Assembly: GCF_000487995.2 (NCBI RefSeq)
Contig: NZ_CP097562.1
Span: 865,001 to 929,000 of the forward strand
Direction: 5' to 3'
Source: Mucispirillum schaedleri ASF457
Lineage (GTDB): Bacteria > Chrysiogenota > Deferribacteres > Deferribacterales > Mucispirillaceae
DNA: 64,000 bases
Positions 50,642 to 54,742 of this stretch are shown piece after piece. Both the position numbers and the translations under genes were made by a program. Below the pieces are notes generated by a model. It did no database searches. It worked only from the letters and a program-made list of their open reading frames with translations, and was not told where the DNA came from. Numbering within the stretch: the first letter of the stretch is position 1; every line of letters begins with the position of its first letter.

Positions 50642-51079
50642 ATGAAAGCTGATGATATTATTACATATTGTTTTGATAATTATGGTTATATAGACTATCG
50701 CCATACTTCTTATGGACAGGAGCTTTTTTACAGGCAGGGCAGTATAAGCACATTTTTCTTAAATATTTTGGAATTTGATACTGATGACGATAATTTTTCA
50801 GACCTTAACCACCCAGATAAATATAGAGTTTCATTGTGTATACCTTCTGAAGAATATAATAAATTATTCAGCCAGTTATGCCCTTATGATAAAAAGTATG
50901 TATGTTATAAGGGGTGTGATTATACTAAGCCTGATATAATAATGCCGCACCCTGTAAAAAGTAAAGAATATTTTATTCAGTGCATAAGCCCATCAAAACT
51001 AATATTTGAAAAAGTTTTAGACAATCTTATATCTCTAAGTTATAAAAGAGCAAGGCAGGAATATTTACTTAAAAGATAA
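50642..51079 (+). CDS. DUF6194-like protein
   Basis: A 145-residue cytoplasmic protein. The pattern 'strand FFLNILEFDTDDDNFSDL, DKYRVSLCIPSEEYNKLF, then IIMPHPVKSKEYFIQCISPS and a final helix FEKVLDNLISLSYKRA' matches what I remember of the DUF6194 family of small proteins of unknown function. GAGGTATAAAA precedes the ATG. It lies upstream of the sigma factor operon but is separated by a candidate ECF promoter. Confidence 0.5.
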   Translation: MKADDIITYCFDNYGYIDYRHTSYGQELFYRQGSISTFFLNILEFDTDDDNFSDLNHPDKYRVSLCIPSEEYNKLFSQLCPYDKKYVCYKGCDYTKPDIIMPHPVKSKEYFIQCISPSKLIFEKVLDNLISLSYKRARQEYLLKR

Positions 51080-51087
51080 TGTTCTAT

Positions 51088-51115
51088 GTAACTTTTTAAT
51101 TTTTTTTGCGACTAA
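51088..51115 (+). promoter_or_regulatory. Candidate autoregulated ECF sigma promoter
   Basis: GTAACTT (51088-51094) and CGACTAA (51109-51115) are separated by 14 bases. They resemble the GGAACTT / CGTCTAA boxes typical of ECF sigma factors and lie just before the sigma gene. Confidence 0.35.
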
Positions 51116-51145
51116 AACAGTGATAGGTAATTAAAGAGGGATACT

Positions 51146-51706
51146 GTGGAGATTAATGATATAGATATTATCATTGAAGTATTAGATGGTAATACTGATA
51201 AGTTTGCAATACTTATAGATAAATATAAAAATAAAATATTTAAGATAGTATCTATGCATGTTCCACAGGACTATGTGGAAGAAGTTGCAAACGATATATT
51301 TTTTAAAAGTTATAAATCGCTTAAAACATTTAAAAATGATTCTCCACTTATTAACTGGCTGACTGTTATATCTATTAGAACATGTAAAGATTTCTGGCGT
51401 AAAAAATATGCTCAGAAAGATATGCCGATGTCATCTTTTAGTGAAGAAACAGAGCAGACTATTGAGCAGGGTATAGATTACAGAACACCTGAAGATAATA
51501 TTTTAGGTGAAGAAAAGTATAAAATGCTTATGAAAGCAATGGAATATTTAAAGCCTGTAGAAAGAACTATTATTTCTATGATGTATGCAGAAGAAAGAAG
51601 TGTTGCAGAAATTGCTTCAATTACAGGCATGACAGAATCAAATGTAAAAGTAACAGCATTTCGTGCCAGAAAAAAATTATCAGAAATACTTAATACTATG
51701 ATGTAG
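51146..51706 (+). CDS. ECF-type RNA polymerase sigma factor
   Basis: A 186-residue sigma factor with region 2 (FAILIDKYKNKIFKIV, NDIFFKSYKSLKTFKN, INWLTVISIRTCKDFWRKK) and region 4 (EYLKPVERTIISMMYAEERSVAEIA, SITGMTESNVKVTAFRARKKL). There is no sigma 3 region. The start is GTG at 51146 with AGAGGG five bases ahead. The next two genes encode a membrane anti-sigma candidate and an exported LTxxQ protein, so the sigma factor should respond to an envelope or metal stress. Confidence 0.88.
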   Translation: MEINDIDIIIEVLDGNTDKFAILIDKYKNKIFKIVSMHVPQDYVEEVANDIFFKSYKSLKTFKNDSPLINWLTVISIRTCKDFWRKKYAQKDMPMSSFSEETEQTIEQGIDYRTPEDNILGEEKYKMLMKAMEYLKPVERTIISMMYAEERSVAEIASITGMTESNVKVTAFRARKKLSEILNTMM

Positions 51707-51717
51707 AGGAGTATGAT

Positions 51718-52257
51718 ATGGAAAAAAAATATACTGAAAAAGAAATTGAAAATATATTAAAATCATTAAAACATAAAGAAATATTGCCGAAATCTGATTT
51801 TACACTTAGTGCTATGCAGCGTATAAAAAATGACAGCAGTTTTGATGATGATATTATGAAATTAGACGAAACAGATGATATGCTTGAATGTCTTGCTTTT
51901 ATAGATGAAGTAAAACCAAGTGATAATTTTACAAATAATGTAATGGCAAAAATAAAAACAGAGCAGAATTTTAAATATGATGAAGAAAATATTGATAGTG
52001 TATTAAGCCTGCTTAGTAAACAGCCAGTTGTAACTCCGTCAAAAGATTTTACAAGTAAAGTAATGACAAAAATTGATGAAACTGATGTTAATTATAATGT
52101 TATATCCTTTGAAAAAGTATATAAAAAATTCTTAATAGTTTCAGCTGTTGCAGCAGCTGCTGCTGTTCTTTTAGCATTTAATCTTTTTTCAAATTATGAC
52201 CCTGCAATGGCAGAGTTTATGGTAACAGATTATTTTAATATGGGGTTGTATAAATAA
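51718..52257 (+). CDS. Probable anti-sigma factor with three internal repeats
   Basis: A 179-residue protein with one membrane helix at ~138-157 and a short periplasmic tail. The cytoplasmic part is three tandem units of about 43 residues, each ending in a motif of the form P-S-x-D/N-F-T-x-x-V/A-M-x-x-I-K (24-37, 67-80, 107-120). There is no zinc-binding HxxxCxxC, so it is not a standard ZAS anti-sigma. It lies 11 bases after the sigma gene and its stop abuts the next ATG. Role inferred from position and topology. Confidence 0.6.
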   Translation: MEKKYTEKEIENILKSLKHKEILPKSDFTLSAMQRIKNDSSFDDDIMKLDETDDMLECLAFIDEVKPSDNFTNNVMAKIKTEQNFKYDEENIDSVLSLLSKQPVVTPSKDFTSKVMTKIDETDVNYNVISFEKVYKKFLIVSAVAAAAAVLLAFNLFSNYDPAMAEFMVTDYFNMGLYK

Positions 52258-52926
52258 ATGACAGTTAAAAAATCTATTAAATTTATATTTGCATTTTTGA
52301 CTATATTTTTTCTAGGTGCATTAACTGGTGCATCTATTATGCCAGTTGTTTTTAATAAAGTAGGCGGCAACCCTTATTCTATTAATGTATTATCTGAGCG
52401 AATATATAATACCCACCTTTTAAAAAATGCAGGTCTTACACCAGACCAGAAAGCTGCTCTTGATGAACTTTCTGCAAAATATGTATTAAAATACACTGCA
52501 GAAAGAGATATGTTTATGGCAAAACGAAGAACATTATACAGTAATTTTAAATTTGATGTAGATAAAATATTAACACCTGCTCAGTATACCAGCTTTGTTA
52601 ATAAATCTGATGCTTTAATTAAAGAAAGAGAGCGTTATAATAAATCTGTAGAAGAAAAATGGCGTGCAGAAAGAGCCAAAAAAACAAATGCAAAATTACA
52701 GTCAGCAGGCTATGAGCAAAAACTGAAATATATAACTATTTCTGTGCCGACAGAAGATATTATTCCTAAAGATTTAAAAGATGCTGATAAGCAAAATAAA
52801 GCAGTTTTTGACTTTTTAAATAGATATATGATAGACAGAGTTAAATATAACTGGGATACATATCATGTGTATCATGAAGTAACAAATTATAAAGATATTA
52901 TTAAGACAGAAGATGTAGAGCCATAG
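52258..52926 (+). CDS. Membrane-anchored LTxxQ (CpxP/Spy-like) periplasmic protein
   Basis: A 222-residue protein with an N-terminal membrane helix (IKFIFAFLTIFFLGALTGA) and a helical periplasmic part. LTPDQKAALDEL (~60-71) and the later ILTPAQYTSF (~103-112) are two LTxxQ-type motifs, as in the metal- or stress-sensing CpxP, Spy and ZraP proteins and the heavy-metal-resistance family. It starts directly after the anti-sigma gene. It could tell the anti-sigma factor about envelope stress. A residual family A repeat follows. Confidence 0.65.
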   Translation: MTVKKSIKFIFAFLTIFFLGALTGASIMPVVFNKVGGNPYSINVLSERIYNTHLLKNAGLTPDQKAALDELSAKYVLKYTAERDMFMAKRRTLYSNFKFDVDKILTPAQYTSFVNKSDALIKERERYNKSVEEKWRAERAKKTNAKLQSAGYEQKLKYITISVPTEDIIPKDLKDADKQNKAVFDFLNRYMIDRVKYNWDTYHVYHEVTNYKDIIKTEDVEP

Positions 52927-53252: not shown

Positions 53253-53357
53253 AGAATATACAAACTGCAACAATGATAAAAATAGTATGTATAGTTATTG
53301 AAACTTATAATATTGAACTTACCCGAAAAAGTTGGACGAGCCATATAAGGAGTGTAT

Positions 53358-53915
53358 ATGGCAAGAAAATACAGCTATGAGTTTAAGAAATATCTAGTAA
53401 CAGTCTTAGAAAGCGGTATAATGAGTGCCAGTGAATTATCAAGATGCTGTAAAATTCATAAAGGAGTAATATGTAATATCTATAACAGATATAAGCATTC
53501 AGGCGAATCAAGTTTACATCATAGCTTTACCCGCAATGAATATAGTAGAGATTTTAAATTAAATGTGTTAACTTATAAGGCATCAAATAATTTAAGTTAT
53601 GAGCAGACAGCACTATATTTTAATATACCATCAGCATCAGTAATATATGACTGGAATAAGTTTTGCAGTAAGTTTATTGGAGATAATATGTCAGATAAGA
53701 ATATCCCGAACAGTAAAAAGAGTAAACACTCAAACTCTACTGATATTAAACTCACTAAATCAGATGATAGTGAAGAAGTAAGACAATTAAAAGAGAGAAT
53801 ATCAGAGCTTGAAAAAGAGCTTTATTACAAGTCAGCGGAGAATGCATATTTAAAAAAGCTGGAAGCCTTAATGCAGTCAAAGGAACAGAGAGTTCAACAG
53901 AAAAAGCACAAATAA
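53358..53915 (+). CDS. IS3-family transposase OrfA
   Basis: A 185-residue DNA-binding subunit with two helix-turn-helix regions (YSYEFKKYLVTVLESG with SASELSRCC, and YSRDFKLNVLTYKASN with SYEQTALYF) and a coiled coil (VRQLKERISELEKELYYKS), the IS150-group layout. ATG at 53358 with GGAG five bases before; a GTG two codons earlier is less likely. It ends in HK-stop after the A-rich run. Confidence 0.88.
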   Translation: MARKYSYEFKKYLVTVLESGIMSASELSRCCKIHKGVICNIYNRYKHSGESSLHHSFTRNEYSRDFKLNVLTYKASNNLSYEQTALYFNIPSASVIYDWNKFCSKFIGDNMSDKNIPNSKKSKHSNSTDIKLTKSDDSEEVRQLKERISELEKELYYKSAENAYLKKLEALMQSKEQRVQQKKHK

Positions 53916-53941
53916 TAACTGCATTAAGGCTGTATTACAGT

Positions 53942-54742
53942 TTGGATATCCTGTTGTCTGTGAGTAATATGAAAAGAAGCACTTACTATTATAATGTTAA
54001 AAAGCCTGCTGCATTAGATAAATATGCAGAAGTCAAGACATCTATATTAGAAATATATGAAAAATCTAACAAGACTTATGGTTATCCAAGAATATCAAAG
54101 GTATTAGAGAAACTGGGTTATACTTATGACAGGAAGACAGTGTATAAATTGATGAAAGAACTAAAAATTTCATCACTAATCAGGGTTAAGAAAAGGTATA
54201 AACAAGGCAGAGTAAGTCATATATGCAGCAATAAATTAAACAGAGCCTTTACAAGTGAGAGACCATGTTTAAAATGGGTAACAGATGTGGCAGAGATAAA
54301 AATTAATAATGAAAAGGTGTATTTATCAGCAATAATGGATTTGTATAACAGAGAAATAACAGCATACAGTGTAAGCAAATATAATAATGAAGAAATGGTA
54401 ATAGATAATTTAAAACAGGCAATAGATAAAACAAAAGATACAACAGGGTTAATGATACATTCAGACCAGGGTATATTATATCAGGCTAATCAATTTAGAA
54501 AGTTATTAAAGGAAAATAATATAGAGCAGAGTATGTCAAGGCGTGGCAACTGCTATGATAATGCTGTTATGGAAAGTTTCTTTGCTACTTTAAAATGTGA
54601 ATTGGTTTATATTAACAAATTCAAAAATATAGAACAGTTTAAATATGAACTTGAAAAATATATTGATTTCTATAATAATTACAGAATAAAAGCTAATGGA
54701 CTTACACCTTTACAGGAAAAAGAAATTTATTTAGTGGCTTAG
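53942..54742 (+). CDS. IS3-family transposase OrfB (DDE)
   Basis: A 266-residue integrase-core protein from a TTG codon; the frame is open back to about 53900, where -1 frameshifting would fuse it to OrfA (upstream residues read AQIITALRLYYSLDIL). The catalytic triad is in WVTDVAEI, MIHSDQGIL and NAVMESFFATL. All look intact, so the element may be active. Confidence 0.88.
   Translation: MDILLSVSNMKRSTYYYNVKKPAALDKYAEVKTSILEIYEKSNKTYGYPRISKVLEKLGYTYDRKTVYKLMKELKISSLIRVKKRYKQGRVSHICSNKLNRAFTSERPCLKWVTDVAEIKINNEKVYLSAIMDLYNREITAYSVSKYNNEEMVIDNLKQAIDKTKDTTGLMIHSDQGILYQANQFRKLLKENNIEQSMSRRGNCYDNAVMESFFATLKCELVYINKFKNIEQFKYELEKYIDFYNNYRIKANGLTPLQEKEIYLVA

Follow-up and report, generated by a model that had tools for sequence, protein, structure and literature searches.

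The genes described here form a three-gene operon (51087-52926, + strand) of Mucispirillum schaedleri ASF457, located in a 64,000-nucleotide window, by which we mean the whole stretch of DNA analyzed, corresponding to positions 865001-929000 of a 2.35 Mb single-contig genome (G000). Mucispirillum is a mucus-dwelling gut bacterium of the phylum Deferribacterota. The operon encodes an extracytoplasmic function (ECF) sigma factor, a putative membrane-anchored anti-sigma factor whose predicted cytosolic part is composed of three tandem units, and a candidate anchored periplasmic sensor resembling CpxP and CnrX. The open reading frames (ORFs) lie as proposed in an initial annotation of this DNA (51146-52926), the start codon of the sensor gene abuts the anti-sigma stop, and the operon was found in all ten Mucispirillum genomes searched. 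Coordinates are collected in Table 1.

Three tandem units in a candidate anti-sigma factor

The initial annotation recognized three repeats in the middle protein, each ending in PSxDFTxxVMxKI, together with the lack of a zinc motif, and both the repeats and that lack are borne out. The phenylalanine of the motif recurs at residues 28, 71 and 111 (spacings of 43 and 40), and an ungapped self-alignment of the cytosolic part scores 54 at best, a value reached by none of 500 shuffled sequences (mean 27.3, maximum 46), which rules out a chance origin. A profile of the 40-residue unit, built from units that include those of the window itself, finds three copies in the genome, all of them within this gene. 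Units 1, 2 and 3 are mutually 26-34% identical, and the motif as first written holds in part: it is present in three copies, but unit 1 has diverged to PKSDFTLSAMQRI, with SAM in place of VM. The protein contains a single cysteine and, by eye, no HxxxCxxC, and thus is not of zinc-type class I, although about 44% of class I anti-sigma domains are also without the zinc motif according to an excerpt of PMC7406223; at about 40 residues the unit is also smaller than a class I domain (at least 50 residues, with helices 1-4). No Pfam or NCBIfam family reaches its cut-off for the window protein, and the units return scattered weak matches only in these collections. One unspecified member of a 15-protein anti-sigma alignment matches RseA_N (E 0.00018), alongside matches to unrelated families that are equally strong or stronger.

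Similarity to known structures was sought with profiles against 177,635 distinct Protein Data Bank (PDB) sequences. With a 30-unit profile, RsiW of the SigW/RsiW complex is the top match (E 0.0045, next about 1), aligned as VEAPADFTANVMAKL against VKPKADFTSNVMARI. RsiW also ranks first with a profile of 12 units from Mucispirillum alone (E 0.05, next 1.1) and with a profile of the whole anti-sigma (E 0.14, next 0.46), the latter aligned over RsiW residues 40-77; the similarity to the end of RsiW therefore covers the second half of the unit in the unit searches and about 40 residues in the whole-protein search. The CnrY chain is not among the PDB profile matches up to E = 10, and the protein is not placed in class II by sequence similarity to CnrY. 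When the unit profile was run against 291 genomes of another phylum, three matches were found at E<=0.01, all of them in anti-sigma-like proteins and immediately following HxxxCxxC; the gene of one (L257) comes directly after an ECF sigma ORF, the contig of the second (L258) begins inside the gene, and no sigma ORF is seen in the stretch around the third (L259). The zinc-type (zf-HC2) anti-sigma of the M. schaedleri genome itself has a comparable segment by eye, PKEDIDLSKKIMANI.

Excerpts of the published SigW/RsiW structure place the C-terminal half of RsiW alpha3 in a groove on sigma4 and a third RsiW binding motif (in the text, alpha3 and loop L4) in a groove on sigma2, with a figure legend giving the domain assignment reversed (PMC5358783). 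According to a coevolution study, likewise excerpted, class I domains contact sigma2 mainly through helix 4, and CnrY inhibits with two helices, 1 and 2, which lie on sigma4 and sigma2 respectively (PMC7406223). As judged from the alignments, the Mucispirillum repeat resembles the end of RsiW-type domains that wraps around sigma.

The sigma factor itself matches Pfam families Sigma70_r2, r4 and r4_2 above their cut-offs, and no region 3 family is among its eight Pfam matches; with regions 2 and 4 present and region 3 absent it belongs to the ECF (group 4) type. A profile of 18 orthologues finds Escherichia coli sigma-E (1or7) as the closest PDB relative (E=2.7e-28), with further matches to a sigma-H factor (6in7), SigW (1.4e-20) and CnrH (1.2e-13). 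Among the best 25 of 94 NCBIfam matches, the superfamily model TIGR02937 alone exceeds its cut-off. Used as a query, the sigma factor finds one other ECF-like sigma in the genome at E<=0.001, and a third match, a 237-residue protein, is FliA-like by eye. The second ECF (L002, G000:C1:2201634-2205164) has its own zf-HC2 anti-sigma (Pfam), a neighboring third protein of 295 residues with an H/G/M-rich stretch, and the upstream sequence TGAACTT...TGTC.

Table 1. Features of the sigma, anti-sigma and sensor operon in window coordinates
Feature	Position	Strand	Basis
ECF-type promoter TGTAAC-N16-CGAC, 5' of the operon	51087..51112	+	Sequence; strict form in 10/10 Mucispirillum orthologues
ECF sigma factor, regions 2 and 4, 186 aa, GTG start	51146..51706	+	Pfam, PDB profile
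Putative membrane-anchored anti-sigma, three tandem units, 179 aa	51718..52257	+	ORF, repeat statistics, unit profile, RsiW match
Unit 1, residues 2-41	51721..51840	+	Repeat statistics, unit profile
Unit 2, residues 45-84	51850..51969	+	Repeat statistics, unit profile
Unit 3, residues 85-124, membrane-proximal	51970..52089	+	Repeat statistics, unit profile, MAFFT
Transmembrane helix (~131-157) and short conserved periplasmic tail (...AEFMVTDYFNMGLYK)	52108..52254	+	Hydrophobic stretch, low-confidence model
Candidate anchored periplasmic CpxP/CnrX-like sensor, 222 aa	52258..52926	+	Model hairpin, LTxxQ motifs

Unit number among relatives

The number of units varies among orthologous operons. 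The profile of 30 units (from 39) was searched in 117 genomes at E<=0.001, and it identifies three units in the window's genome and seven other Mucispirillum genomes, five units in two Mucispirillum genomes (G001 and G006), and one unit in each of five sister-genus genomes, namely G011 and the four g2 genomes (G010, G012, G013 and G014); the remaining 102 of the 117 genomes give no match. Three g2 units and the G011 unit are included in this profile, so that the matches in those genomes are partly by construction. Nonetheless, when the profile is restricted to the 34 units from Mucispirillum and run on the 255 ORFs at eight loci, the five sister-genus middle proteins take the top five places (E 8e-9 to 8e-4, the next ORF at 0.85); this recovers the g2 proteins, which had first been assigned by operon position. 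G011 and the g2 genomes have the same three-gene operon, with a middle protein of 95-101 residues whose cytosolic part barely exceeds one unit, and because the cytosolic domain there is nearly a single unit, one unit should suffice. MAFFT places this single unit at unit 3, although in g2 it is about equally distant from units 1-3. With the whole anti-sigma as a query, relatives were found in 11 of 50 genomes of the phylum (G011 at 9.2e-18). In a more distant genus (L024-L026), the operon comprises a sigma factor, a membrane protein of 92-95 residues (with start codons chosen by hand) and an LTXXQ-like protein. The place of the middle protein in the operon is kept across three genera of the family. 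Viral contigs yielded 197 stretches matching the pattern, none of them coding for a relative.

Where there are five units, units 3-4 repeat units 1-2 at an offset of 81 codons, and the duplicated blocks are 97-100% identical in DNA over 60-base stretches, dropping at the edges; the alignments thus identify the five-unit state as a tandem duplication of 81 codons, either recent or kept alike. In the unit tree, which rests on 40 columns and leaves the deeper order unresolved, unit 2 and unit 3 of the whole genus fall into one supported clade each, and the state with three units is therefore probably older than the sampled Mucispirillum genomes.

Ratios of nonsynonymous to synonymous substitution rates (dN/dS; NG86, six close species) of 0.33, 0.42 and 0.37 for units 1-3 indicate that each unit is under purifying selection, compared with 0.08 for the sigma factor and 0.13 for the sensor. 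The V/I position of the motif is retained in 33 of 34 units and the M in 32 of 34; these two positions had some freedom in the pattern by which units were picked, which fixed the F and last I and so gives their presence in 34/34 by construction. The membrane segment and tail (residues 128-178) have a dN/dS of 0.16 and are constrained more tightly than the units, which suggests a partner for the tail, most simply the sensor.

Sensor candidate, promoter and predicted regulon

The AlphaFold model of the sensor (mean predicted local distance difference test, pLDDT, 62.6) has an N-terminal hydrophobic helix and a long helical hairpin at moderate confidence (residues 62-104 and 107-149). Two LTxxQ motifs are present at residues 60-64 and 105-109 in all ten Mucispirillum sensors, and are 45 residues apart in all 11 sensors of Mucispirillum and G011; the four g2 sensors are without the pair, and two of three g8 sensors have one motif. 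The sensor of the remote orthologue L024 passes the Pfam LTXXQ family PF07813 (26.0 against a cut-off of 24.3) and falls below PF13801, Metal_resist (22.4 against 29.2), and that of L026 falls below PF07813 (18.5 against 24.3). A metal site common to all sensors is not supported, because no His or Cys is invariant across the 18 that were aligned.

The autoregulatory-looking promoter of the initial annotation, GTAACTT-14-CGACTAA, is present at 51088-51115, and with a gap of 13-17 bases its two halves have two matches in the genome. The conserved form is shorter, however, being TGTAAC-N16/17-CGAC. Presence in orthologues had been chosen beforehand as the check that could overturn the proposal, and the strict core lies upstream of the operon in all ten Mucispirillum genomes, 33-39 bp before the start codon, with spacers between its halves averaging only 54% identity. 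The five sister-genus operons have TGTAAC followed by a 16-base gap and an altered -10 (CGTC, TGAC or AGAC), as identified by eye.

Counted across the genus, the strict motif does not make a convincing case for a regulon, for there are 67 sites against 54 for the reversed-pattern control; as the raw count barely exceeds the control, the case rests on position and recurrence. Sixty-one sites were classified, the other six being operon promoters of six genomes; 12 are coding, 44 are non-coding and have an ORF starting no more than 100 bp away, and five are other. The control sites (29 distinct sites from 30 loci of the 54 matches, not a random draw) include 27 coding, none upstream of an ORF and two other. 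Upstream placement thus differs sharply (44/61 against 0/29, Fisher p 6e-12), and continues to do so without the four operon promoters among the classified sites (40/57, p 3e-11).

Altogether 51 of the 67 sites have an ORF start within 100 bp. These comprise the sigma operon (10 sites, 10 genomes), PepSY-like genes (15 sites, 8 genomes), a membrane protein of about 172 residues and a secreted protein of about 180 residues (8 sites in 8 genomes each), an outer membrane protein (OMP) barrel (2), lipoprotein-like genes (2+2), a 148-residue secreted protein (2), an HlyD-type adaptor (1), and one likely chance site; the names PepSY_like and OMP barrel are by Pfam, and the secretion and lipoprotein labels by eye. 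The membrane-protein gene is present in nine of ten genomes and has the strict motif in eight of the nine, the window's genome having a variant that differs by one base. Among the 28 PepSY-like copies, 15 have the strict motif, two more a relaxed one, and 11 neither, the latter including six distant paralogues. G011 has the motif 5' of a protein that by eye looks orthologous to the 148-residue target. The second ECF is an unlikely owner of the motif, having a different upstream sequence and an anti-sigma of its own. With the promoter shared by the operon itself in 10/10 genomes and by recurring targets in 8/10, the pattern has the form of an autoregulated circuit, and genes with TGTAAC-N16/17-CGAC appear to constitute a predicted regulon, a small envelope set.

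The PepSY-like families (L128 at G000:C1:799500-804500, L100, L114, L116 and L124-L126) amount to two to five copies in each of the nine genomes where a match exists, the promoter being on some of them, and PF11396 is the Pfam family of the two proteins tested. The 180-residue target has no Pfam family; at L127 (G000:C1:701000-706500) it is followed by a diverged 181-residue protein, an apparent paralogue (NPLSFNGTY/NPVSLNGTY). We note that in G014 (L236, G014:C43) a sequence resembling TGTAACGCAAAATCTAGCAAATTGAC occurs four times, spaced by multiples of 122 bp, in a tandem array that is apparently unrelated to the regulon.

Immediately 5' of the operon promoter is a DUF6194 gene (50642-51079, Pfam). 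A similar gene, identified by eye, is at the same place in six Mucispirillum genomes, and an acetate-kinase-like gene, also by eye, takes its place in the other four. A two-ORF transposase, which we take to be IS3-like, lies 426 bp 3' of the operon (53352-54742); its second ORF matches rve and HTH_21, and the first has no Pfam match.

Relation to known systems and interpretation

The three-gene architecture is already known. CnrH-CnrY-CnrX of Cupriavidus metallidurans likewise comprises an ECF sigma, an anti-sigma and a periplasmic sensor (PMC4598750, excerpt), CnrY being of class II with a two-helix sigma-binding part, and CnrX being thought to signal through the anti-sigma (PMC7406223 and PMC4598750, excerpts). 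In contrast to CnrYXH, Mucispirillum has three or five copies of the predicted sigma-binding unit, its sigma is nearer to sigma-E and SigW than to CnrH, the sensors are without invariant His or Cys (the CnrX ligand set itself was not aligned), and the predicted regulon is mostly of envelope genes of unknown role. As excerpted in PMC12153292, SigAb-AabA-AabB of Acinetobacter baumannii has the same order of sigma, small membrane anti-sigma and periplasmic protein and a small autoregulated regulon; AabA, at 107 residues, is modelled like CnrY, with no repeats mentioned in that excerpt, and the SigAb promoter differs (-35 GTCAAC, -10 CGTT). The promoter consensus is also known, since Bacillus subtilis SigX promoters, as quoted in the same excerpt, have the same -35 TGTAAC and a -10 of CGWC. 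The B. subtilis anti-sigma RsiW has a single zinc-type domain, alpha1-alpha4, and forms a heterodimer with SigW (PMC5358783, excerpt). The Mucispirillum unit matches the end of this domain, PADFTANVMAKL against PKADFTSNVMARI, and from its position we infer that PADFTANVMAKL is RsiW alpha4; unlike RsiW, the Mucispirillum protein is without alpha1-alpha2 and the zinc ligands, and its end segment is repeated. What sets the Mucispirillum protein apart is that its predicted sigma-binding unit is repeated in tandem. No description of tandem sigma-binding domains was found among the open-access PubMed Central titles and abstracts listed, nor does 'tandem' occur in the excerpts of two reviews or surveys, which is weak evidence of novelty and not proof.

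The locus is best read, and probably correctly so, as an autoregulated ECF circuit for envelope stress, built around minimal sigma clamps in tandem. This reading draws on what the sequences offer in gene anatomy, the similarity of the units to anti-sigma domains, the conservation of the units with change in their copy number, and the pattern of promoter and regulon. In unstressed cells, the single-pass anti-sigma would hold the ECF sigma at the inner membrane, its cytosolic part acting as three minimal clamps in tandem. Each clamp, some 40 residues long and made of two helices, would correspond to alpha3-alpha4 of RsiW-type domains, its first helix resting on region 4 of sigma and the P-x-x-DFTxxVMxKI helix on region 2; were every unit to bind sigma, one anchor could hold several sigmas, or rebind one with high avidity. 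Detection of a periplasmic or envelope cue probably falls to the anchored CpxP/CnrX-like protein, which would act through the short conserved periplasmic tail of the anti-sigma, by a conformational switch or exposure to proteolysis, such that sigma is freed. Free sigma would then transcribe from TGTAAC-N16/17-CGAC its own operon and the small set of envelope genes.

Several results weigh against this interpretation. The match to RsiW is borderline in two of the three PDB searches and, in those made with units, spans just 15-17 residues; the AlphaFold model of the anti-sigma is uninformative (mean pLDDT 41.3), such that the helix pairs appearing in it do so at a pLDDT of 41. The window sensor has no Pfam match, its Foldseek search gives nothing at E<=0.001 (best E 7.7), and four chains reach Z>=2 in VIA-align (three of the four shown), the highest Z of 5.4 having a root-mean-square deviation of 30.5 and not being meaningful. 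The whole anti-sigma query missed the four g2 counterparts at E<=0.01, and L024-L026 have no detectable unit in the middle protein and no TGTAAC upstream of the operon. In the sister genera, TGTAACN16/17YGAC is not enriched (33 sites against 34 for the control), and three of 29 examined sites are upstream of an ORF, by a classifier that did not pair the operon promoter of G012 (L237) with its start codon.

Alternatives to independent binding by each unit must also be considered. The units could cooperate on one sigma, through split helices or fast rebinding, to give tighter 1:1 inhibition, as might be expected of units each shorter than a class I domain; in BldN/RsbN, which is of another anti-sigma class, helices of one chain reach two sigmas (PMC7406223, excerpt). 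We regard this as unlikely, given that the sister genera have nearly just one unit as the cytosolic domain. A less probable arrangement still is that one unit alone, probably the membrane-proximal unit 3, binds sigma, with units 1 and 2 serving as spacers or making other contacts. The alignment of single-unit orthologues at unit 3, by the membrane, and the SAM substitution in unit 1 of the window agree with it, but g2 units show no such preference in distance, the V/I and M positions are kept in nearly all units, purifying selection is similar on all three, and two genomes duplicated a two-unit block and retained its motifs. That different units hold different sigma factors, so that the protein integrates several sigma pathways, could be suggested by the divergence among units and the positional clades of units 2 and 3, but is very improbable when the one other ECF-like sigma found in the genome with this sigma as query at E<=0.001 has its own zinc-type anti-sigma and different upstream sequence. 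Finally, a sigma-unrelated membrane protein, as the lack of a Pfam or NCBIfam family at cut-off might imply, is scarcely credible in view of the matches to RsiW and zinc anti-sigmas and an operon position kept across three genera.

The clamp array may represent a polyvalent anti-sigma, holding several sigmas at once, in which evolution tunes threshold and capacity of the stress response through the number of units (1, 3 or 5), a proposal that we advance tentatively and with less assurance than the circuit itself. The refined promoter yields a predicted regulon for the Mucispirillum envelope circuit, and the natural series of one, three and five units in orthologous operons would make testable an otherwise theoretical question, that of how the valency of an inhibitor shapes a sigma circuit in its threshold, its buffering and the kinetics of release.

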